Origin: Ruminiclostridium cellulolyticum H10
GTDB taxonomy: Bacteria > Bacillota > Clostridia > Acetivibrionales > DSM-1351
DNA: 64,000 nt
Direction of reading: 5' to 3'
Assembly: GCF_000022065.1 (NCBI RefSeq)
Contig: NC_011898.1
Coordinates: 2,917,501 to 2,981,500 of the forward strand
Positions 20,582 to 29,650 of this stretch are shown in pieces (position 1 is the first letter of the stretch; every line of letters begins with the position of its first letter). Made by a program: the position numbers and the translations under genes. The notes below the pieces were generated by a model. The model was not told the origin of the DNA, searched no databases, and was given only the letters and a program-made list of their open reading frames with translations.

Positions 20582-22039
20582 ATGAAATATATACCTTCTA
20601 TAGGCTTGGAAATACATTCGGAGTTATCTACAAAATCAAAAATTTTCTGCGATTGTCCCGTAAGTTTCGGGGGCGAGCCAAATACAAGGTGTTGTCCCGT
20701 TTGCACAGGAATGCCCGGAACTTTGCCTGTTCTCAACAAGCAAGCCGTTGAGTATACCGTAATAGCAGGCTTGGCCTTAAACTGCAAGATAAATGAATTT
20801 TCGAAAATGGACAGGAAAAATTATTTTTATCCGGATTTACCCAAGGCTTACCAGATATCGCAATTTGACCTCCCCATCTGTAAGGACGGAGGATTGACTA
20901 TAAATACACCTGATGGCGAAAAATTCATCAGAATTGAAAGAATTCATTTGGAAGAAGACGCCGGAAAGCTTCTTCATGACAACTATGACAGATATAGTCT
21001 TGCAGACTATAATCGCTGCGGAGTTCCTCTGATAGAGATTGTAACTAAACCTGATTTGTCCTCTGCAGAAGAAGCGAAGGAATTCGTTGAAAAGGTTCGT
21101 TTGATGCTCCTATACTCCGGCGTTTCAGACTGTCGTATGGAGGAAGGCTCTTTGAGGGCTGATGTAAATGTGTCTATTAGACCGATTGGTACTGATGAAC
21201 TTGGCACAAGAACAGAAATGAAAAATATCAATTCCATAAAAGCTATTGCAAGAGCTATTGATTATGAAATCAACAGACAGTCAGAGCTTCTGAATGAAGG
21301 TAAAAAAATAATTCAGGAGACAAGACGCTGGGATGATAGCAAAGGCGAAAGCAAGGCACTAAGAAGCAAAGAAGATGCACATGACTACAGATATTTTCCA
21401 GAACCGGATATTGTGCCTGTAACCTTTAAAAGTGAGGATATTGAGAAGCTGAGAAAATCCCTTCCGGAGCTTCCCGACAAGAGATTTGAAAGGTACACGA
21501 AAACCTACTCTGTTAACCAAGCTGATGCCAATCTGCTGCTTACTTCGGTAAGTCTCTCGGATTTCTTTGAAGCTGCCGCAGCCGAATCGGGAAATCCTAA
21601 ACAGGCCGCTAATTTTATTGTGGTTGAAGTATTGAGAAGGCTCAAAGACAGCAACATGTCGCCCGAGGATATTCCCTTTGACGGAAAGCTGCTGGCAAGA
21701 CTCTTAAGATTGATGGACAGCGAAAAAATTACTCCCAACAATGCTAAGAAGGTTTTGTCAGAAATGTTTGAAACAGGTAAAGAACCTGATACCATTGTAG
21801 ATGAAAGAGGCTACAAAATAATAAATGATACTGCAGAAGTTGAAAGCATGGTTAAAGAAATAATCTCAAGTAATGAAAAAGCGGTTGGGGAATATCTTGA
21901 AGGTAAAGAAAAGACTTTTGGGTATTTGATGGGGCAATGTTCAAGGGCATTGGCCGGGAGAGGCAATCCTAAAGTAGTTCAGGAGATCCTGAGAAGCGAG
22001 CTTAACAAGCTTAGAGATATTGATATAAACGTTCATTAA
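20582..22039 (+). CDS. gatB: Asp/Glu-tRNA amidotransferase subunit B
   Basis: 485-residue tRNA-binding and kinase subunit that activates the carboxylate of misacylated tRNA with ATP. It has the GLEIHSELST start, a cysteine set (IFCDCPVSFGG..RCCPVCTGMPGTLP) that binds Zn in the family, RKNYFYPDLPKAYQISQ and the C-terminal GatB/Yqey helical tail. AAGGAG precedes the ATG. asnB starts 122 bp later on the same strand, so the run may continue as gatCAB-asnB. Confidence 0.97.
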   Translation: MKYIPSIGLEIHSELSTKSKIFCDCPVSFGGEPNTRCCPVCTGMPGTLPVLNKQAVEYTVIAGLALNCKINEFSKMDRKNYFYPDLPKAYQISQFDLPICKDGGLTINTPDGEKFIRIERIHLEEDAGKLLHDNYDRYSLADYNRCGVPLIEIVTKPDLSSAEEAKEFVEKVRLMLLYSGVSDCRMEEGSLRADVNVSIRPIGTDELGTRTEMKNINSIKAIARAIDYEINRQSELLNEGKKIIQETRRWDDSKGESKALRSKEDAHDYRYFPEPDIVPVTFKSEDIEKLRKSLPELPDKRFERYTKTYSVNQADANLLLTSVSLSDFFEAAAAESGNPKQAANFIVVEVLRRLKDSNMSPEDIPFDGKLLARLLRLMDSEKITPNNAKKVLSEMFETGKEPDTIVDERGYKIINDTAEVESMVKEIISSNEKAVGEYLEGKEKTFGYLMGQCSRALAGRGNPKVVQEILRSELNKLRDIDINVH

Positions 22040-22088
22040 CTTTTTAAAGCACATATTTTCTCTCTTTTTCATATACTGATAAGAGCGT

Positions 22089-22141
22089 TGGGACAATGAC
22101 GTCAGCGATGATAATTGTCCCATGTCTTGTTTTAAAACAAG
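22089..22141 (+). promoter_or_regulatory. Two hairpins in the asnB leader
   Basis: TGGGACAAT/ATTGTCCCA (22089-22097, 22114-22122) is followed at once by a perfect 16-bp palindrome CTTGTTTTAAAACAAG (22126-22141), 12 bp before the asnB ribosome site. There is no clear T-run, so translational control or an operator is more likely than a terminator. Confidence 0.45.
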
Positions 22142-22161: not shown

Positions 22162-23576
22162 ATGTGCTCAATTCTTGGTTTGGTAAATTTTAAAGATGGT
22201 ACAAATAGTGTCTCTCAGGAAACCCTTGAAAGCATGAGATTGACTACTGTTCATAGAGGTCCTGACGAGTACGGTTTTTTTAGAGATAAATATGTTTGTT
22301 TTGCCCATAACAGACTTGCTGTTATTGACGTTGTCAACGGTTTACAGCCCATGACTGCTGTTTTTGAGGGTAAATCCTATACTGTTGTTTATAATGGTGA
22401 GCTTTATAACGCAAATGAATTGCGGTCAGAACTTGAAAATCTGGGAGTAGAATTTAAAACCCGCTGTGACACGGAGGTTTTGCTTTATTCATATATACTA
22501 TGGGGTATGGGGTGTTCGGAAAAACTTAATGGTATTTTTGCCTTTGCAGTTTATGATGATGATAAAAAACAGGTTTACGTATCCAGAGACAGAATGGGCG
22601 TAAAACCGTTTTTTTACACTTTTATCGGAGATACTTTAATTTTCTCCTCGGAAGTAAAAGCTATTTTGAAACATCCACAGATTAAAGCAGAGGTGGACAG
22701 TGAAGGCATATGGCAGTTGTTATACCTTTCCCCCATGCGTCCGTCCAATAATGGAACTTTTAAAAATATATTTGAAATTTCACCCGGTTTTCATGGGGTT
22801 TTTAACCATAACGGACTGGAGTTAAGAAAATACTGGTCCCTGCACGCTTTTGATGTGGAAGATAACGAAAGTACTATAATTGAAAAAACAAGATTTTATC
22901 TCACAGATGCAATTCAGAGACAGCTTGTTTCAGATGTACCCTTATGTACTTTCTTATCCGGGGGACTAGACTCTTCTATAATAACAGCTGTTGCCCAAGC
23001 CGACAAAAAAAATGGGGATTTACTTAGCACCTACTCTTTTGAATATGAAGGTAACAAGCAGCACTTTTTATCAACAAATTTCCAACCAGAAAGTGATGAC
23101 AGCTATGCAGTCTGGCTTGCTGAATACCTTGGTACAGACCATACAGTTCTTAATGTCACCCAGAAAGCTATTGCAGACCTTCTTTATGATGCGGTAAAAT
23201 ACAGAGACTACCCTGGAATGGCGGATATTGACTCCTCTCTTCTGTATTATTGTAAGCAGATTAAAAAAAGGCATACTGTTGCTTTAAGCGGTGAGTGTGC
23301 TGATGAAATATTCGGAGGATACCCATGGTTCTATAGGCCTGATATGCTTCACAGGAATTTTTTTCCATGGATTCACGACCCTGAATCAAGAATTTTCCTG
23401 TTTGATGCTGACTTTGCAAAACCAAAACAAGGTTTAGATTTTGTAAAACAGATATATAATGACAGTTTAAATGCATGTCCTGTTACAGGAAATGAGACCG
23501 AGGAAATGAAAACTGCAAGGATTGCAAATTGGCTTTCTGTAAACTGGTTTATGGTATCTCTTTTGGAACGAAAGGA
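22162..23576 (+). pseudogene. asnB: Asparagine synthetase (glutamine-hydrolysing), 5' part, interrupted
   Basis: Encodes the glutamine amidotransferase domain (catalytic Cys right after the initiator Met, MCSILGLV) and most of the synthetase domain, including the ATP-pyrophosphatase loop FLSGGLDSSII. A GGAGG lies before the ATG at 22162. The native frame is intact to LLERKD (codon 471 ends at 23577); beyond that the frame reads foreign sequence to a stop at 23619. The missing C-terminus (RMSMASGLEVRVPF...) lies at 29229-29650 on the same strand. Joining at the shared GAAAGGA gives 610 codons, the normal length for clostridial AsnB. Likely inactive while split, unless the inserted element is excised. 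Confidence 0.9.
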
Positions 23577-23600
23577 TATAAAAGTAAAGCATCAAATCTT
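23575..23600 (+). repeat. Left-end repeat, copy 1
   Basis: A 26-bp sequence starting GATATAAAAGTAAAGC that begins at the asnB junction. It recurs at 24433-24458 with one mismatch, at the 3' end of the recombinase gene. Confidence 0.85.
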
Positions 23601-23614
23601 TTTTCATTTTTTGA

Positions 23615-23658
23615 TATAAAATATGGACTAAGTAATTTTACTCAGTTCATATTTTATA
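23615..23658. repeat. Inverted repeat inside the left arm
   Basis: Perfect 11-bp arms TATAAAATATG (23615-23625) and CATATTTTATA (23648-23658), with further partial pairing inside. No T-run follows on the plus strand. It could be a terminator relic, an operator or a recombinase-associated site. Confidence 0.5.
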
Positions 23659-23776
23659 CCTGATTAGATAAAGGAAATGAAACAGTAAACCTTTTGCTTA
23701 ATAAATTTAAAACTATCAGCATATTTATAATGGGTTTCAATTAAAACCCTACCGTAGATTAAGAAAATAAAAAATA

Positions 23777-23810
23777 AGTGCAATTGTTTTAATTACTTAA
23801 CAATTGCACT
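23777..23810 (-). terminator. Terminator of the 57-residue peptide gene
   Basis: 12-bp arms AGTGCAATTGTT (23777-23788) and AACAATTGCACT (23799-23810); on the minus strand a T-rich tail follows. Confidence 0.65.
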
Positions 23811-23844
23811 ATATGGTATAGATAATATTCTTTTAAGTTGACAT

Positions 23845-24018
23845 TTATTTTTTTTTAATAAATTTGCTTGGTCCGAATATTATGACAACAGCGGTAAGAA
23901 TTATTATTATTGAATATGCATTATCTGAGATAAAATGTACCCTTTTTAAAATAAGTGTCGTTATTAATAATACCGATAAAATAATTCTAATAATCAGAAG
24001 CTTTTTTCTATTTTCCAT
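23845..24018 (-). CDS. Small membrane protein, two predicted helices
   Basis: 57 residues: a short basic N-terminus (MENRKKLLIIR), two hydrophobic segments (IILSVLLITTLIL; IIIILTAVVIIFG) and a basic tail ending KFIKKK. Not recognised as a known family. The ATG at 24018 has AAGGAGGG 11 bases upstream, a good ribosome site, so I prefer it to the longer frame starting at 24069. It lies in the left arm of the asnB element between the two 26-bp repeats. A hairpin terminator follows. Roles such as immunity protein or holin-like peptide would be guesses. Confidence 0.6.
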   Translation of the reverse strand: MENRKKLLIIRIILSVLLITTLILKRVHFISDNAYSIIIILTAVVIIFGPSKFIKKK

Positions 24019-24124
24019 ATGTAATTCTTCCCTCCTTATAAATAACACATTTTTATTATATTTATGCATAGGTATATGTCAAGCTTGCAAATCTATTATA
24101 AGCTACAATAATGGTTATTTTATT

Positions 24125-24348
24125 GGGCTGTTGGAAAATTAATTTTTACCTTTTTTAACCTGTACTAAAGAGTATAAATTGTATCAATGGAAGCTTGGTT
24201 AAAGATATTTGCAGTTGTTTATCGGTAAAATATCCTAAGATGATCCGCTAGAAACTCTTGCAAATATCTTGGAATCAATCATTGATATAATTTTTATACG
24301 GGAGTACCAGTAATAAAACAGAAAAACTTTATGTTTTGCGACAGCCCC
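24125..24348. repeat. Possible MITE-like or IS remnant
   Basis: The left edge reads GGGCTGTTGGAAAAT (24125) and the right edge reads, in reverse complement, GGGGCTGTCGCAAAACAT (ends 24348). These are imperfect terminal inverted repeats like the ends of some clostridial IS elements. Inside is a perfect 12-bp inverted repeat (24202-24213, 24259-24270). No transposase is present. The stretch 24019-24449 otherwise holds no gene I can support. Confidence 0.35.
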
Positions 24349-24432
24349 ATTCAATACCGGGTATCAAAACTTAACAAGTGCTTTAGACTATACCTTATAA
24401 AATGTCTTTTATTAAAAATCGTTATGTGAGTC

Positions 24433-24458
24433 GATATAAAAGTAAAACATCAAATCTT
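24433..24458 (+). repeat. Left-end repeat, copy 2
   Basis: 25 of 26 bases match copy 1 at 23575-23600; starts are 858 bp apart. It overlaps the last codons and the stop of the recombinase gene. The sequence left of it (TGAGTC) does not match AsnB, so it is not an asnB junction. Confidence 0.85.
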
Positions 24459-25952
24459 GAATACTATTTCAATCTCTTCGTCGGTGATAACTACCTTTTC
24501 AATTAAGGCCTTTGCAACACTTTTCTTTTGCTCAAGGTTATAGTTGTCCCAGTTTTTCAGGTATTCTGAGAGGTCTTCCCTCTTTATTCTTTGTGAAGAT
24601 TTCTCGATAGAGATTTTGTTTATTTTGTTTTTTAATATTTTCTTTTTATTATCAAGTTCATTAATCCTTTCATTTACATAGCTTCCCGCTGTTTCATTTA
24701 AAGTCAACATCCTATCAATGAGTTTGTTTATGTTTTCTTCAACTTTTGCAAGTTTGATTTTTAAATCATTAACCTCTTTTGAATTAGAGCTTATCTCAAC
24801 GTAAAATTCATTTTTTAATGATTTTATCTTTTCCAAAAGTTTTACTTCAGCTATTTTTTCTATGTCTCTTAAGTAAATAACCCTTTTTCTTTCAAAACAA
24901 AAACCATTTTTCCTTCCTCCACAATTAATGTAAATCAGCCCACGACTATTTACAACAGTAGCGGCATACCCGCAGTATCCGCACTTCATCAGGCCGGATA
25001 GCCAACTATTTTTTCCTTTGCCGCTATTCTTTATAGCTCTGTTTTCATCGGCTCTATATTGGCATTTTAGCCATAGTTCCGAGCTTATTATACCCTTATG
25101 CGGTGCTATGGTTACAAAATTATTTGTCAGATCTGTAAATTTGCTTGTAGTTTTTGTTTTTCTTTCCCCGTATACATAGCAGCCATTTTCGCCAATAAAA
25201 TCATTTATATCACTGTTTATAATGGCTCCTTTATTTTTAAGGTAAACATAAACATCTGCATTTGCTTTAACAAATACAGGATTCCTGATTAACCTCCCTA
25301 CAGTTGTCGGCGTCCAATTATACCCTTTGTTAGTTTTCAATTTTTTTATATTCAAGTATCTTGCTATAACGCCTAAGGATTTGGACTTCTCTGCATACAT
25401 GCTGTAAATATGTCTCACAATCTCACATTTTTCTTTATCCACTCCAAACATATAAGTTTTTTTACCATTTAAAAATGTTTGAACCTTATTATACCCATAG
25501 GGAGCTATACCCCCAAGATATAGCCCCGCTTTACCTCTCTGATAATAGTTGTCCTTTACCCTTTGCTGTATAGTTTCTCTTTCCAGTTGGGCAAAAACCA
25601 TTACTATTGACAGCATTGCCCTGCCCATAGATGTACTGGTATCAAACTTTTCCGTCTGACTGATGAATTCCACCTTATATTTATCAAAACACTCAATAAT
25701 ATGTGCAAAATCAAGAAGTGATCTACTTATACGATCAAGCTTGTAGACCACTACTTTCTTGATAATGCCTATTTTGATGTCTCTTATCATTTCTTCGAAT
25801 GCCGGTCGGTTTATATTACTCCCACTGTAGCCCTTGTCGGTATATATCTTATAGTTTTCTGAAGATATCTCTTTCATACAAAACCCTATCTGGCTTTCTA
25901 TGGAAATACTATCTTTTTTATCTACGGATTGTCTTGTATATATGGCAATCAT
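24450..25952 (-). CDS. Large serine recombinase
   Basis: 500-residue site-specific recombinase. The resolvase/invertase domain (1-150) has the catalytic serine in YTRQSVDKK (Ser9) and the YKLDRISRSLLDF and LERETIQQRVKDNY signatures. It is followed by the recombinase domain (GIAPYGYNK..), a zinc ribbon (CGYCGY..CGGRKNGFCF) and a coiled coil (~380-460) typical of integrases such as SpoIVCA and phage serine integrases. Its stop lies 17 bp inside the repeat that marks the element end. It can be expected to catalyse integration, and possibly excision, at asnB. The reading frame is complete, so it may be active. Confidence 0.95.
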   Translation of the reverse strand: MIAIYTRQSVDKKDSISIESQIGFCMKEISSENYKIYTDKGYSGSNINRPAFEEMIRDIKIGIIKKVVVYKLDRISRSLLDFAHIIECFDKYKVEFISQTEKFDTSTSMGRAMLSIVMVFAQLERETIQQRVKDNYYQRGKAGLYLGGIAPYGYNKVQTFLNGKKTYMFGVDKEKCEIVRHIYSMYAEKSKSLGVIARYLNIKKLKTNKGYNWTPTTVGRLIRNPVFVKANADVYVYLKNKGAIINSDINDFIGENGCYVYGERKTKTTSKFTDLTNNFVTIAPHKGIISSELWLKCQYRADENRAIKNSGKGKNSWLSGLMKCGYCGYAATVVNSRGLIYINCGGRKNGFCFERKRVIYLRDIEKIAEVKLLEKIKSLKNEFYVEISSNSKEVNDLKIKLAKVEENINKLIDRMLTLNETAGSYVNERINELDNKKKILKNKINKISIEKSSQRIKREDLSEYLKNWDNYNLEQKKSVAKALIEKVVITDEEIEIVFKI

Positions 25953-25972
25953 AAGATATCCCCTTTTGTTGT

Positions 25973-26128
25973 TTAAGTTTCTGAATGCTCCATAAGGCTA
26001 TTGATAATGTTGTTAACAATAGTGTATTCCGCCATTTTGTACTCATTTTCTGTTAAATCCGGCCTTTTAGTAATAACCTTAAACCCATTTAAAACTTCTT
26101 CCTTTTCAGTTATTATTAATACCCTCAT
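25973..26128 (-). CDS. 51-residue ORF upstream of the recombinase
   Basis: Starts ATG at 26128 and ends 20 bp before the recombinase start: MRVLIITEKEEVLNGF...KRPDLTENEYKMAEYTIVNNIINSLMEHSET. It is charged and soluble, with a likely C-terminal helix. The ribosome site is weak (GGGGACGG). Not recognised. Size, place and cotranscription with the recombinase fit an accessory protein such as a directionality factor, but nothing in the sequence proves it. Confidence 0.5.
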   Translation of the reverse strand: MRVLIITEKEEVLNGFKVITKRPDLTENEYKMAEYTIVNNIINSLMEHSET

Positions 26129-26444
26129 ATATCCGTCCCCTTAAATTCTATTGTTTTATTTTATTAAGCATGATGGATGTCCTATTACATACTTAAAGTA
26201 AATGCTCAATAGGCCACTCCTTTTAATTCTGTTATGTGCCAAAGTGTGTTATTCCATAACAAGGCGATAAGAGAACAGTATGGAAACATATAAAGGAATT
26301 TAAGTATACTTTTTCCTAATGCTTGTAATTAAAAAAGTAGCCCCTTTAGTAGAGACTACTTTTTTGAAAATTCAGGTTAAGATAATATAAAATGTATCTA
26401 CAAATATTTTATATGAATTCTCTTTCGGTTTTAAATTTATTTCA
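26129..26444 (-). other. Spacer between protease terminator and recombinase unit
   Basis: 316 bp. It holds the protease terminator at 26331-26365. On the minus strand a strong ribosome site (AAAGGAGTGG) lies before a TTG that opens only a 17-codon frame (MSIYFKYVIGHPSCLIK), perhaps a leader peptide for the recombinase unit. No longer gene was seen. Confidence 0.4.
26331..26365 (-). terminator. Terminator of the dockerin protease gene
   Basis: AAAAAAGTAG (26331-26340) pairs with CTACTTTTTT (26356-26365); T-run on the minus strand, about 80 bp past the stop. Confidence 0.8.
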
Positions 26445-29057
26445 TTAATTTAGCTGCTGCTTAGGAAAAATATTTATCTGCCCAAGGATATACTTTCTAA
26501 TGAAAGCAGAATCAATCATATTTATGATACCGTCGCCATTAACATCTGCAGCCCACATGTCATCTTCAACTGGGAAATCATTAATATAGCCTAGACTATA
26601 ATCTACAATTAATAATTGATCAGCATCATCAATAATACCGTTTCCGTCTACATCCCCTACAAGTGCCCAGCTGTAATCTACACTGACATAGCTGTTGTCC
26701 CCGTCATTCTGAAGTTCAGGACCTCTGTAAGTTGAATATTTATTATTAATTTTGTCGTGAACCCTGAAGCTTTTTAATGTGACAGGAGAGCCATCTTCCT
26801 CATTGTCTCCCACCATTAAATACCACTTGTATCTTTTACTCTTGTCCAAATTGAACTTCGTGATGAAGTCCGTCATGTCAACCGCAAAGTTGCCATCACA
26901 GGCAGTGCCATCGACATTAAAGTCGAAAGGCTCTGTATGACTGAGATAATTTAAGCTACCGGGAAAGAAATATGCTTCAGGCATGTTTTTGTCCATATCA
27001 GAATAACCAACGGCAATTCTAAGCTGATCTGCTTTTGCATGGCTCACCGTAAACTCCGCAATAAGCTGGGGTACGTAATCTCTTCGTGGAGTCATCCACT
27101 CCAATACATCCTTAAAAATCGGCATTCTTGTGGAGCTGTTAAACTGGCTGAATTGAGAATTTCTATATATACTGTCATAGTTAACATACACAAAGCCATC
27201 ATAACCGTAATTTGATCCCCAACTGTTGGCTATTTTAAAAAGACCTTTCTCTTCAGGCTGAGGGATTCCATCACCATTTACATCACCCCACCAAATATTG
27301 TCATCGTACCCCACAAGGGTCATTTGATGTCCCGAGTTAACTCCGTCAACCATATAAAAGAAGTGCTTTCCAACGGCGTAATCATCATTTACCGCTGGGT
27401 CAGGGTTATCCAAAACTACATTCGGATATTGCATGAAATTGTATGTACCTGTATCAAAGGACATCACATAGCCATTGTTCAGTAGCTGTTTTATACGCTC
27501 TAAACTGTTTTCATTTGCATCTATATATCCGTACTTATCCATTCTGTAGTTTATTGCATTTTCCCATGAATCTAAATCGGTACTCAGTTTGAATCCGTCC
27601 ACACCATCATTTATATACGGTGCATCAGCCAATGTTGCACAGCCTGAATCCAAATACGTTTTATATACTCCGGTCATAAGTCCGGTGCTACTAGGTGCAT
27701 TACCTACGCTAAAAGCAAACTTAGGAGAAAAGACCTTGCTTCCTGTAGTATCGTTTTTGGCATCCCATTGTCCTCCCGCATTTACCTTGGCGAGCCCTAC
27801 CATATGTGTCATCGTATAATACCCAGTAGACCAGATAACGCAGTCGCCGTATATCTGATTGTCTATTCTGGGGAAACACTGCAGTGTACTGTTGTCCACA
27901 GAAGAAGGAAGCGACTCGGCGTATATTGTATTCAAATCTACCGAATTTCCCTGAACAATAACATTGTTAGGAGTACTGTCTGTCATAATTTCCTCTCCCA
28001 CTTGAACAGGATCAGCTTCCACCAATGGCTTGTTTTGCTGCTGGCGTTTAGTATTCATACGTTCTAAACCAATGGAATTCAATCGGATATTAGTAACATC
28101 AGCCGATGATATTAAGGCATTCTGAGACACTATTTTTATAGTGCTATTTTCCGGCGACCTATTTCCCTTGGCATCGACTGCAACCACACAGAGATCAACG
28201 GTATTTTTAAAATCAATATTCGGGCAGATGGATTTACAATCGTGTGTAATTCGTTTTAGACTACCATTTGAGTAAATCTCGTACAACACTGCTCCTGAAT
28301 CATCAGAGGCTTCATCCCAAGCTAGTTGGCAACTAGGCTGGGATTCATAAACCACCCTTAGATTGGTCGGTGCCAGCGGTGGGGTATTATCTGTATATTC
28401 AATATCGATATTTTCAAACCTGGCCGTACACAGCTTGTTGGGGTCTGTTGACGTTGAAGCAAAACCTAAATATACTTTTGAACCCATAGCTATTGTCTGA
28501 GTATTGCCTGTTTTTGTCCAATTGGTCCCATCTGTTGACATAAATGCTTCAAAACTGTCTCCCACCCTTGTTAACTTCAAATAAACCGGGGCATTGCCGG
28601 AGATACTGGCATCAGATGCGGTGGCACCTCCTGTCATAGCCCTGTACTGGTATTGGATCTGATTTGATTTAGATAATGCAATAAATGCATTCTTACTATC
28701 GGTATCCAGACTCTCTCTTATCATCAGTCCGGCTTTAGCCAAAGCATCCGTACTACTTTCTGAGACGATTCTTGCCTGAATTGTGCAGTCACCATTTACA
28801 GGTATGTATGAATAAGTGAAGGAGTCCTCAGTATTAAACACTCCAGACCCGCTGCCTGCAACAATTACTTTATCCGTAAAAACATCAGCGGTAGAGTATT
28901 CATTTGCATTACCTATATTCCTGTAATTCCAGTAATCTTTATTAATAATACCAACCGCTCCGGCTTGAATTGTTTCAAACCCAAGATTGAACATCATACA
29001 CTGGACTAGAACTGCAAGAGCCAGTACTATACTTGCTTTCTTTAGCCTTTTTTTCAT
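26445..29057 (-). CDS. Secreted papain-like cysteine protease with type I dockerin
   Basis: 870 residues. Signal peptide (1-33); beta-sandwich domain like DUF1349/laminin-G (about 36-222); fibronectin type III-like domain (228-312); C1-type peptidase domain with Cys406 (YGDCVIWS), His577 (GHQMTLVGY) and Asn611 (IANSWGSNYG); C-terminal dockerin with two calcium-loop repeats (DVDGNGIIDDAD.., DVNGDGIINMID..). The dockerin should dock the enzyme on a cohesin scaffold outside the cell. Positions 10-11 of the repeats are D-A and M-I, unlike the common pairs of this genus. It has its own promoter and AAGGAGG ribosome site. Substrate is unknown; cellulosome processing or defence is speculative. It is cargo of the asnB element. 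Confidence 0.92.
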   Translation of the reverse strand: MKKRLKKASIVLALAVLVQCMMFNLGFETIQAGAVGIINKDYWNYRNIGNANEYSTADVFTDKVIVAGSGSGVFNTEDSFTYSYIPVNGDCTIQARIVSESSTDALAKAGLMIRESLDTDSKNAFIALSKSNQIQYQYRAMTGGATASDASISGNAPVYLKLTRVGDSFEAFMSTDGTNWTKTGNTQTIAMGSKVYLGFASTSTDPNKLCTARFENIDIEYTDNTPPLAPTNLRVVYESQPSCQLAWDEASDDSGAVLYEIYSNGSLKRITHDCKSICPNIDFKNTVDLCVVAVDAKGNRSPENSTIKIVSQNALISSADVTNIRLNSIGLERMNTKRQQQNKPLVEADPVQVGEEIMTDSTPNNVIVQGNSVDLNTIYAESLPSSVDNSTLQCFPRIDNQIYGDCVIWSTGYYTMTHMVGLAKVNAGGQWDAKNDTTGSKVFSPKFAFSVGNAPSSTGLMTGVYKTYLDSGCATLADAPYINDGVDGFKLSTDLDSWENAINYRMDKYGYIDANENSLERIKQLLNNGYVMSFDTGTYNFMQYPNVVLDNPDPAVNDDYAVGKHFFYMVDGVNSGHQMTLVGYDDNIWWGDVNGDGIPQPEEKGLFKIANSWGSNYGYDGFVYVNYDSIYRNSQFSQFNSSTRMPIFKDVLEWMTPRRDYVPQLIAEFTVSHAKADQLRIAVGYSDMDKNMPEAYFFPGSLNYLSHTEPFDFNVDGTACDGNFAVDMTDFITKFNLDKSKRYKWYLMVGDNEEDGSPVTLKSFRVHDKINNKYSTYRGPELQNDGDNSYVSVDYSWALVGDVDGNGIIDDADQLLIVDYSLGYINDFPVEDDMWAADVNGDGIINMIDSAFIRKYILGQINIFPKQQLN

Positions 29058-29103
29058 GTAGCCTCCTTGAAAATGTAATAGAATATATTAGAATAACATA
29101 TTA

Positions 29104-29133
29104 TATATACCATTTTTAGTATATTAATGTCAA
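29104..29133 (-). promoter_or_regulatory. Promoter of the dockerin protease
   Basis: Minus-strand consensus -35 TTGACA (29128-29133), 18-bp spacer, -10 TATATA (29104-29109), about 47 bp before the ATG. Confidence 0.7.
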
Positions 29134-29228
29134 ATATATGCTTTTTTACAACTTCTTGGCTTAAATCGCAAAATTAAAACTTTTTTCAAACCTTTAAAAT
29201 TGTTTTTCTTTTATGGCTTTACGTGAAA

Positions 29229-29650
29229 GAAAGGACCGTATGTCAATGGCAAGCGGTCTTGAAGTAAGAGTTCCCTTCGCAGACCACCGGATTCTGGAAT
29301 ACGTGTACAATGTACCATGGAAGCTTAAATTCAAAAATAAAGTTGAGAAATCACTTTTAAGGGAAGCCATGAGTGATTATCTGCCTGCCAAGATTTTGCA
29401 CAGGAAAAAGAGCCCTTATCCTAAAACCCATAACCCTGAATATGAAGCAATTATTTCAGAAATGTTCGAGGAGGTTATGTCTACCCCAGATTCCATACTC
29501 AAGGATATACTTCACCCGGATACACTGCCTCTCCTGCGTTCCGGCAGTAACATAACATGGTATGGGCAGCTTATGGGAAGACCACAACTTATTGCCTGGC
29601 TTATACAGTTGGATTACTGGTTTAAGGAGTATAAAGTAAAAATAGTCTAA
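29229..29650 (+). pseudogene. asnB: Asparagine synthetase, 3' part, cut off by the element
   Basis: The last 138-140 codons of AsnB: RKDRMSMASGLEVRVPFADHRILEYVYNVPW through the C-terminus, with the usual KSPYPKTHNPEY segment. An ATG at 29213 opens the frame but has no ribosome site, so independent translation is unlikely. The frame continues exactly from the 5' part when the 7-bp cores are fused. A normal terminator follows, showing that this was the native 3' end. Confidence 0.9.

Follow-up and report, generated by a model that had tools for sequence, protein, structure and literature searches.

The nifD and hupL excision elements of cyanobacteria interrupt a gene of nitrogen metabolism and are excised in a particular cell type, in other hosts and by other recombinases than those of the element described below. 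Closer systems have been described in spore-forming bacteria. According to the accessible portions of the reports, the skin element of Clostridioides difficile (sigK; with CD1231 as recombinase and CD1234 as directionality factor) splits a sigma-factor gene, with excision under the control of sigmaE and SpoIIID (PMC5025042); excision restores the split gene, and CD1234 is a protein of 53 amino acids (PMC10747680). The gin element, located in gerE of Bacillus cereus ATCC10987, is described in the available text as free of phage genes, and its serine recombinase GirC, together with GirX, restores the gene (PMC5595907). A third element, yin, is a serine-recombinase element in yabG of C. botulinum V73, and the available account reports its circular form (PMC10747680).

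An element splitting the asparagine synthetase gene asnB was found in Ruminiclostridium cellulolyticum H10, in a stretch of 64,000 nucleotides that was analysed as a whole (the window) and that comes from a genome of one contig of 4,068,724 bases. This asnB-splitting element is found in several related cellulose-degrading bacteria. It seems to have persisted there over a long period in which asnB remained useful, as though it were excised exactly whenever asnB is required.

The split asnB gene

The split asnB begins at 22162 with its 5′ part and closes at 29650 with its 3′ part, both on one strand (Table 1). The 5′ part comprises the glutaminase domain and an N-terminal piece of the synthetase domain, the 3′ part the remaining synthetase domain. 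A sequence-only reading of this DNA had proposed that asnB is cut by an element whose exact removal would give back a whole frame. This was borne out on joining: the two parts make 1,830 bases without a frameshift. The 610 codons given in that reading counted the stop, and the protein is 609 aa long. With four other genus genomes broken at the identical codon, the split is, on this sequence comparison, far beyond chance.

Table 1. Features of the split asnB locus (window coordinates).
Feature	Position	Strand	Basis
asnB leader: −10-like TATACT (by eye) and hairpin	22072–22122	+	leader motif, fold
asnB 5′ part to predicted crossover	22162–23565	+	Pfam GATase_7 and Asn_synthase (PF00733 profile positions 5–227 of 354); dyad centre
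Intervening element, 5,659 bp, G to G	23566–29224	.	end-dyad centre
attL side: GA, 7-nt half-spacer, right dyad arm (23575–23592)	23566–23592	+	arm complementarity
74-aa ORF of extra left cassette	23845–24069	−	no Pfam or PHROG match
Inner copy of left-end repeat, at recombinase 3′ end, marking the extra left cassette	24433–24458	+	25/26 identical to 23575–23600
Large serine recombinase, 500 aa	24450–25952	−	Pfam; phrog_95 integrase, E 1.6e-100; TP901-1 integrase 3bvp, E 6e-21
51-aa ORF, candidate recombination directionality factor	25973–26128	−	adjoins recombinase upstream in 5/5 genus elements
Conserved box GTAATAGGACATCC upstream of 51-aa ORF	26175–26188	−	exact in 4 genomes, 1 mismatch in G009
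Cargo, 870-aa protein: papain-type protease, dockerin, DUF1349-like stretch	26445–29057	−	Pfam
attR side: left dyad arm (29200–29217), half-spacer, GA	29200–29226	+	arm complementarity
asnB 3′ part from predicted crossover	29225–29650	+	Asn_synthase (PF00733 profile positions 223–324 of 354); join gives 609 aa

Element ends and crossover

Together, the two ends of the element make up an inverted repeat with arms of 18 bp and a 16-bp spacer, at the centre of which lies a GA dinucleotide (23566–23567 and 29225–29226). The dyad centre was GA in 7/7 elements, from five genus genomes and two MAGs. The arms pair at 17/18 positions in G004, G006, G007 and an Oscillospiraceae contig, at 16/18 in the second MAG, where the ends lie on separate contigs, and at 13/18 in the window genome and G009. 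Joining at GA produced a stop-free asnB in all five genus genomes (609, 609, 609, 609 and 626 aa) and a stop-free frame of 612 aa in the Oscillospiraceae MAG; in G006, the stop-making bases next to the core sit on the element side of GA. The heptamer GAAAGGA, earlier used as the joining point, is indeed common to both junctions (at 23570 and 29229, with four copies across the window), but it was rejected as the best reading of the crossover because the dyad is centred on GA and joining at GAAAGGA leaves the stop in G006. It is likely from these alignments that the crossover occurs at the GA dinucleotide, a few bases before GAAAGGA.

Among G004, G006 and G007 the left arm agrees at 18/18 positions, and that of the window genome matches theirs at 14/18, while the 18 nt just outside the arm match at 5–6/18 among the same three. 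A conserved left arm amid unlike surroundings looks like a recombinase-binding site under selection. As the arms in the window are just 13/18 complementary, excision could be weaker or lost there.

Recombinase, candidate directionality factor and cargo

The ORFs of the window element, encoding products of 74, 500, 51 and 870 aa, all lie on the minus strand. The recombinase, called intact in the sequence-only reading, is indeed a complete large serine recombinase with Resolvase, Recombinase and Zn-ribbon domains. It is encoded near one element end; in the window genome and G004, an extra left cassette, with a second copy of the end repeat or of the recombinase 3′ end, lies between that end and the recombinase. 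PHROG searches of the window element matched the recombinase alone, with none for the 870-, 74- and 51-aa ORFs. A prophage or phage-derived element was rejected on these grounds, together with the distance of phage recombinases.

The cargo of the asnB elements is unlike from species to species, and the elements measure 5,659 bp in the window genome, 5,746 in G004, 4,239 in G006, 4,251 in G007 and 12,142 in G009. The window genome carries the dockerin protease, in which the DUF1349 stretch scored just under the Pfam cut-off; neither this 870-aa cargo protein nor the 74-aa ORF of the extra cassette was matched by tblastn in any of the remaining ten genus regions. In G006 and G007 the cargo is a MarR-type regulator together with an MFS exporter (the exporter tested on the G006 copy), and in G004 a MarR-type regulator (the copy tested) with an eCIS_core/DUF4474 protein and a DUF5104 protein. 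Polysaccharide genes make up cargo of the Oscillospiraceae MAG element: five of six ORFs tested from it matched GLF, epimerase, Polysacc_synt, PS_pyruv_trans and Wzy_C, and the sixth matched FrhB_FdhB.

A 51-aa ORF lies 15–40 nt upstream of the recombinase start in all five genus elements. In the six pairs formed by four close species, its dN was well under dS (dS 0.23–1.22). Beyond the genus its similarity is weak (E 0.015 to 3e-5). Matches were found upstream of the recombinase relatives at loci L071 (E 3e-5), L074 (8e-4) and L079 (0.015), and the L074 protein as query matched L075 (E 2e-5). Other relatives of the recombinase are listed with short upstream ORFs, and in the two MAGs an ORF of the 51-aa type is read in frame with the 5′ half of asnB. 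Searches of Pfam gave no match to the 51-aa ORF, and those of PHROG no convincing one. By analogy with CD1234, this conserved 51-aa protein is a candidate directionality factor.

The 14-nt box upstream of this ORF, GTAATAGGACATCC, has one exact match in the genome. It was rejected as a general regulon box because the 28 genome matches with up to two mismatches were close to the 25 obtained with a reversed control. Its likeness to what we take to be the SpoIIID site serves as a lead only; a literature search for the string was empty.

Occurrence in the genus and beyond

With the joined protein as query, asnB was found split at one codon in five of 11 genus genomes (the window genome, G004, G006, G007 and G009) and intact in five (G001, G002, G003, G005 and G010). 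The contig of G008 stops at the split site and the search found no 3′ half, so this genome was counted as neither. A recombinase orthologue (70–100% identity) was present in exactly the five split genomes of the 11, each time inside asnB and in the same orientation. Empty sites in relatives had been proposed as a check on the sequence-only reading, and the five intact genes provide them, for instance that of G005, which is without the element. The precise absence of the element in G005 is compatible with excision.

Relatives of the recombinase were found in, among others, Ruminiclostridium papyrosolvens C7 and R. sufflavum DSM 19573. In the contig database, 4/4 relatives lay inside asnB, two of them being G006 and G009 again. 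An order-level search at E 1e-80 found the recombinase in 7/58 genomes and a class-level search at E 1e-90, with at most three candidates per genome scored, in 22/391, both including the five split genomes. In two Oscillospiraceae rumen MAGs the recombinase stands directly behind the same asnB break; in one, a single contig holds both asnB halves and the 14,133-bp element between them, and in the other the 3′ half sits on another contig.

Twenty further recombinase loci (L082–L101, flanks of up to 1.5 kb) had no asnB half nearby. In five of these 20, a C-terminal fragment of a polysaccharide deacetylase lies no more than about 0.3 kb from the recombinase; such a fragment is within 0.7 kb in L080 and L081 and 5.6 kb away in L071. 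The deacetylase at these loci is known from 3′ fragments alone, and its best family was the sporulation protein PdaB, with a score far under the cut-off. At L071 (8817–16400, in G009:C11), a 47% identical paralogous recombinase and nitrogenase-type genes precede the deacetylase 3′ fragment; the nifH-like gene scored over and the NifE/D-like gene under the cut-off, and the deacetylase junction has a similar dyad arm, CTTTTGTATC, followed by CAACAGTG-A.

At a separate locus of the window genome (L072 4929–6966; G000:C1 about 503,930–505,970), there is a further large serine recombinase, with 35% identity, and a sigK 3′ half (NF004471, E 3.6e-53, under the whole-protein cut-off) comes immediately after it. 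By its gene content this is a skin-type element in the window genome too. Recombinases of this sigK type (33–40% identical, E 1e-50 or better) occur in 9/11 genus genomes, a count that leaves out the 47% paralogue of G009 and for which the sigK half was examined in the window genome alone.

Age, inheritance and selection

Among the four close split species, recombinase dS was 0.40–1.08 against a mean host dS of 0.29–0.80, calculated from the asnB parts, gatB, a CODH-like gene, the sigK-type recombinase and a tauA-like gene (names by reading). The ratio of the two was 1.18–1.39 over six non-independent pairs (r = 0.975); in two pairs the recombinase value was under that of the short asnB 3′ part alone. 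Omega in the six close pairs was 0.057–0.089 for the asnB 5′ part, 0.026–0.042 for the 3′ part, 0.09–0.12 for the recombinase and 0.065–0.14 for gatB. Both halves had earlier been called undecayed, and the strong purifying selection measured on each agrees with this.

Distances to more remote genomes gave a similar picture. The dN of the asnB 5′ part to G001, G010, G003, G002 and G009 was at most 0.001 higher in the split species than in the intact G005. For the 3′ part dN was slightly raised in the window genome (0.154, 0.153 and 0.158 to G001, G010 and G003, compared with 0.132–0.155 in the other four close species) and also in G004 to G002 and G009; gatB, used as a control, likewise showed higher dN in the window genome than in G005. 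Under a neutral simulation with a branch length of 0.05, an average of 4.2 stops arose, and 1.6% of 500 runs were stop-free. On these comparisons asnB has stayed useful while split. Recombinase dS that tracks host dS, together with purifying selection on the asnB halves, fits an element inherited vertically, with asnB kept functional over that time.

Branching order, a point against this reading, is poorly resolved. Four-taxon trees paired G006 with G007 for the host (bootstrap 59) and G004 with G006 for the recombinase (77). Supports among the close species were 22–80 and the place of G005 is not fixed, so that loss of the element in G005 is read from distances alone, and this genome was dropped as proof of loss. 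A recent insertion, one of two possibilities raised in the sequence-only reading, is contradicted by the recurrence at the same codon, the low omega of the halves and the host-tracking dS of the recombinase; neither a young element nor a decaying gene was seen.

Asparagine supply and control of asnB

A GACAATG leader motif precedes asnB in 10/11 genus genomes. The window leader folds at −15.5 kcal/mol (z −2.33; 5/200 shuffles equally good), with the hairpin GGGACAATG..GTCCC (22089–22122) between promoter and asnB. An Rfam search of the leader returned five matches up to E 10, none near the gathering score. An ANTAR-type leader is not claimed: the loop pattern is like that in the accessible text of the description (PMC3369931), yet a single hairpin was seen. 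The conserved, attenuator-like leader points to metabolic control. In Bacillus subtilis, by the accessible part of the report, asnO, which encodes an asparagine synthetase, belongs to the mother-cell genes and is under positive control of sigmaE, sigmaK and SpoIIID, and its mutant was one of three that did not sporulate like the wild type (PMC517825), which makes excision in the mother cell reasonable. For the interrupted gene, then, the asnO parallel suggests sporulation and the leader suggests metabolism.

The gene had been noted as standing directly after gatCAB, which is true of the window but not a conserved contact: in G004, G006 and G007, asnB is immediately preceded by a 509-aa gene, and the end of gatB is about 4 kb away. 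At 22000–22039 of the window, gatB ends with the apparent last codons of this 509-aa gene, and a local deletion in the window genome is probable.

It had also been suggested that the state of the element could decide whether free asparagine is made. AsnRS scored over the cut-off in 11/11 genus genomes, so tRNA can be charged with free asparagine, for which a need is plausible. In the window genome, PF00733 had four matches, namely the two asnB halves, a partial match of 23.9 bits (cut-off 21) and another of 20.1, and thus this search brought up no other complete asparagine synthase there. Elsewhere, among homologues at E 1e-60 or better, G007 has a second full-length asparagine synthase (L036 1501–3129; G007:C1:650767–652395), 33% identical to AsnB and over the TIGR01536 cut-off. 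AsnB is therefore not the sole source of asparagine in every split species, and the element need not decide alone.

Proposed excision and alternatives

The split, the in-frame restoration, the end dyads, the vertical signal and the selection on both halves and the recombinase can all be read from the DNA itself, and they are best explained if asnB carries a long-established gene-intervening element whose precise excision would restore the gene in some cells or conditions. We give this reading a probability of about 0.73. In the mechanism proposed, the large serine recombinase would cut at GA in attL and attR, joining the flanks into an intact asnB and releasing the element as a circle, with the 51-aa protein as the likely directionality factor that permits excision. 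The element would be kept in the chromosome of most cells and asnB restored in a subset or under some condition. Two triggers are candidates: the sporulating mother cell, as for skin, or nitrogen status. No sporulation promoter was identified, which was counted against this reading. A regulated element of the skin kind has thus proved the better of the two possibilities raised at the outset; restoration of asnB by excision is likely, and we infer that excision takes place, what the 51-aa protein would do and what may trigger the event.

Excision might instead be a matter of chance, with a selfish element leaving and re-entering asnB randomly, free of host control, and enough restored cells arising to keep asnB selected. 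The exchange of cargo and the precise absence of the element in G005 would fit such a cycle of loss and gain, the second synthase of G007 could make the break tolerable, and gatCAB might supply Asn-tRNA. The vertical signal opposes frequent exchange between species, a point that bears on exchange and not on random excision itself, and the AsnRS genes found throughout the genus indicate that free asparagine probably matters. On balance this account is unlikely.

Less probable still are recent, independent arrivals of a mobile element, for which asnB would be a preferred site, newly broken in the sequenced strains. The recombinase belongs to a phrog integrase family, cargo differs between species, and G005 and four other genomes are intact. 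The recombinase class is also found on mobile elements, two Campylobacter records with 43% identity being among eight matched plasmid records. These C. jejuni plasmids (AP025982.1 16967–18457 and NZ_CP028186.1 60771–62261) encode a full-length recombinase, so the family also rides on mobile elements. Transfer, however, would give recombinase divergences under the host mean, whereas those observed scale with the host at ratios above one; the 51-aa ORF has diverged as well; and phage records gave two matches, of 31–34%, with a scan of viral contigs confirming no close relative.

That split asnB works unexcised, its two polypeptides assembling into an active asparagine synthetase, is very improbable: both halves are conserved, and in 4/5 split genomes an in-frame ATG of the 3′ half follows 4 nt after an in-coding AAAGGA, but the break falls inside the synthetase domain, and the retention of the recombinase, end dyads and 51-aa ORF would go unexplained.

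If excision does restore asnB, a broader and tentative picture, which we hold to be somewhat doubtful, is that serine recombinases of one clade have become the source of stable, vertically inherited DNA switches within metabolic genes. In the window genome, where no other full synthetase was found, asnB would be off in the germ line and turned on by excision, either in a terminal cell type or in some nitrogen state. The element would also act as a slot for the exchange of cargo between species (a cellulosomal protease, an exporter, surface polysaccharide genes), and a sister branch may treat polysaccharide deacetylase likewise, judging from 3′ fragments only.

Comparison with known intervening elements

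In the literature searched, with most subscription papers outside its scope, there was no report of an intervening element or serine-recombinase split in asnB, nothing on asparagine synthetase excision in C. cellulolyticum and nothing on an intervening element in polysaccharide deacetylase with sporulation. The described intervening elements of the skin and gin type split sporulation-related genes, as far as the accessible portions of the reports go (PMC5595907, PMC5025042, PMC10747680). If the reading proposed here is true, a long-kept element in an amino-acid synthesis gene would mean that programmed DNA excision can control clostridial metabolism. The system is ready for testing, with definitions at hand for the joined asnB site, the circular form, the recombinase, the 51-aa candidate factor and a relative naturally free of the element, and the GA-centred dyad with a similar arm at a second target gene may give insight into how a recombinase changes its target.

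Like skin and gin, the asnB element lies within a coding sequence whose frame is restored on its removal, in 5/5 genus genomes and one from the Oscillospiraceae, and it has a large serine recombinase beside one end. We class it with the gene-intervening elements of the skin/gin type, as one that has been kept for long and interrupts a metabolic gene. With skin it shares the large serine recombinase and the precise splitting of a host gene, and its 51-aa candidate factor is similar in size to CD1234 as given in the accessible text. Unlike in skin, the gene is metabolic and the candidate factor is encoded directly upstream of the recombinase. Both gin, by the available account, and the asnB element are gene-intervening, use a serine recombinase and are without phage genes; gin is 28.6 kb long, has three serine recombinases and interrupts a sporulation gene, whereas the asnB elements are 4.2–14 kb long, and each of those examined matched this recombinase once. 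The yin and asnB elements are both serine-recombinase elements that split a clostridial gene. As described in the portion of the report available, yin is prophage-like and occupies a sporulation gene in one strain, while the asnB element is found in five genomes of its genus and two MAGs of another family.
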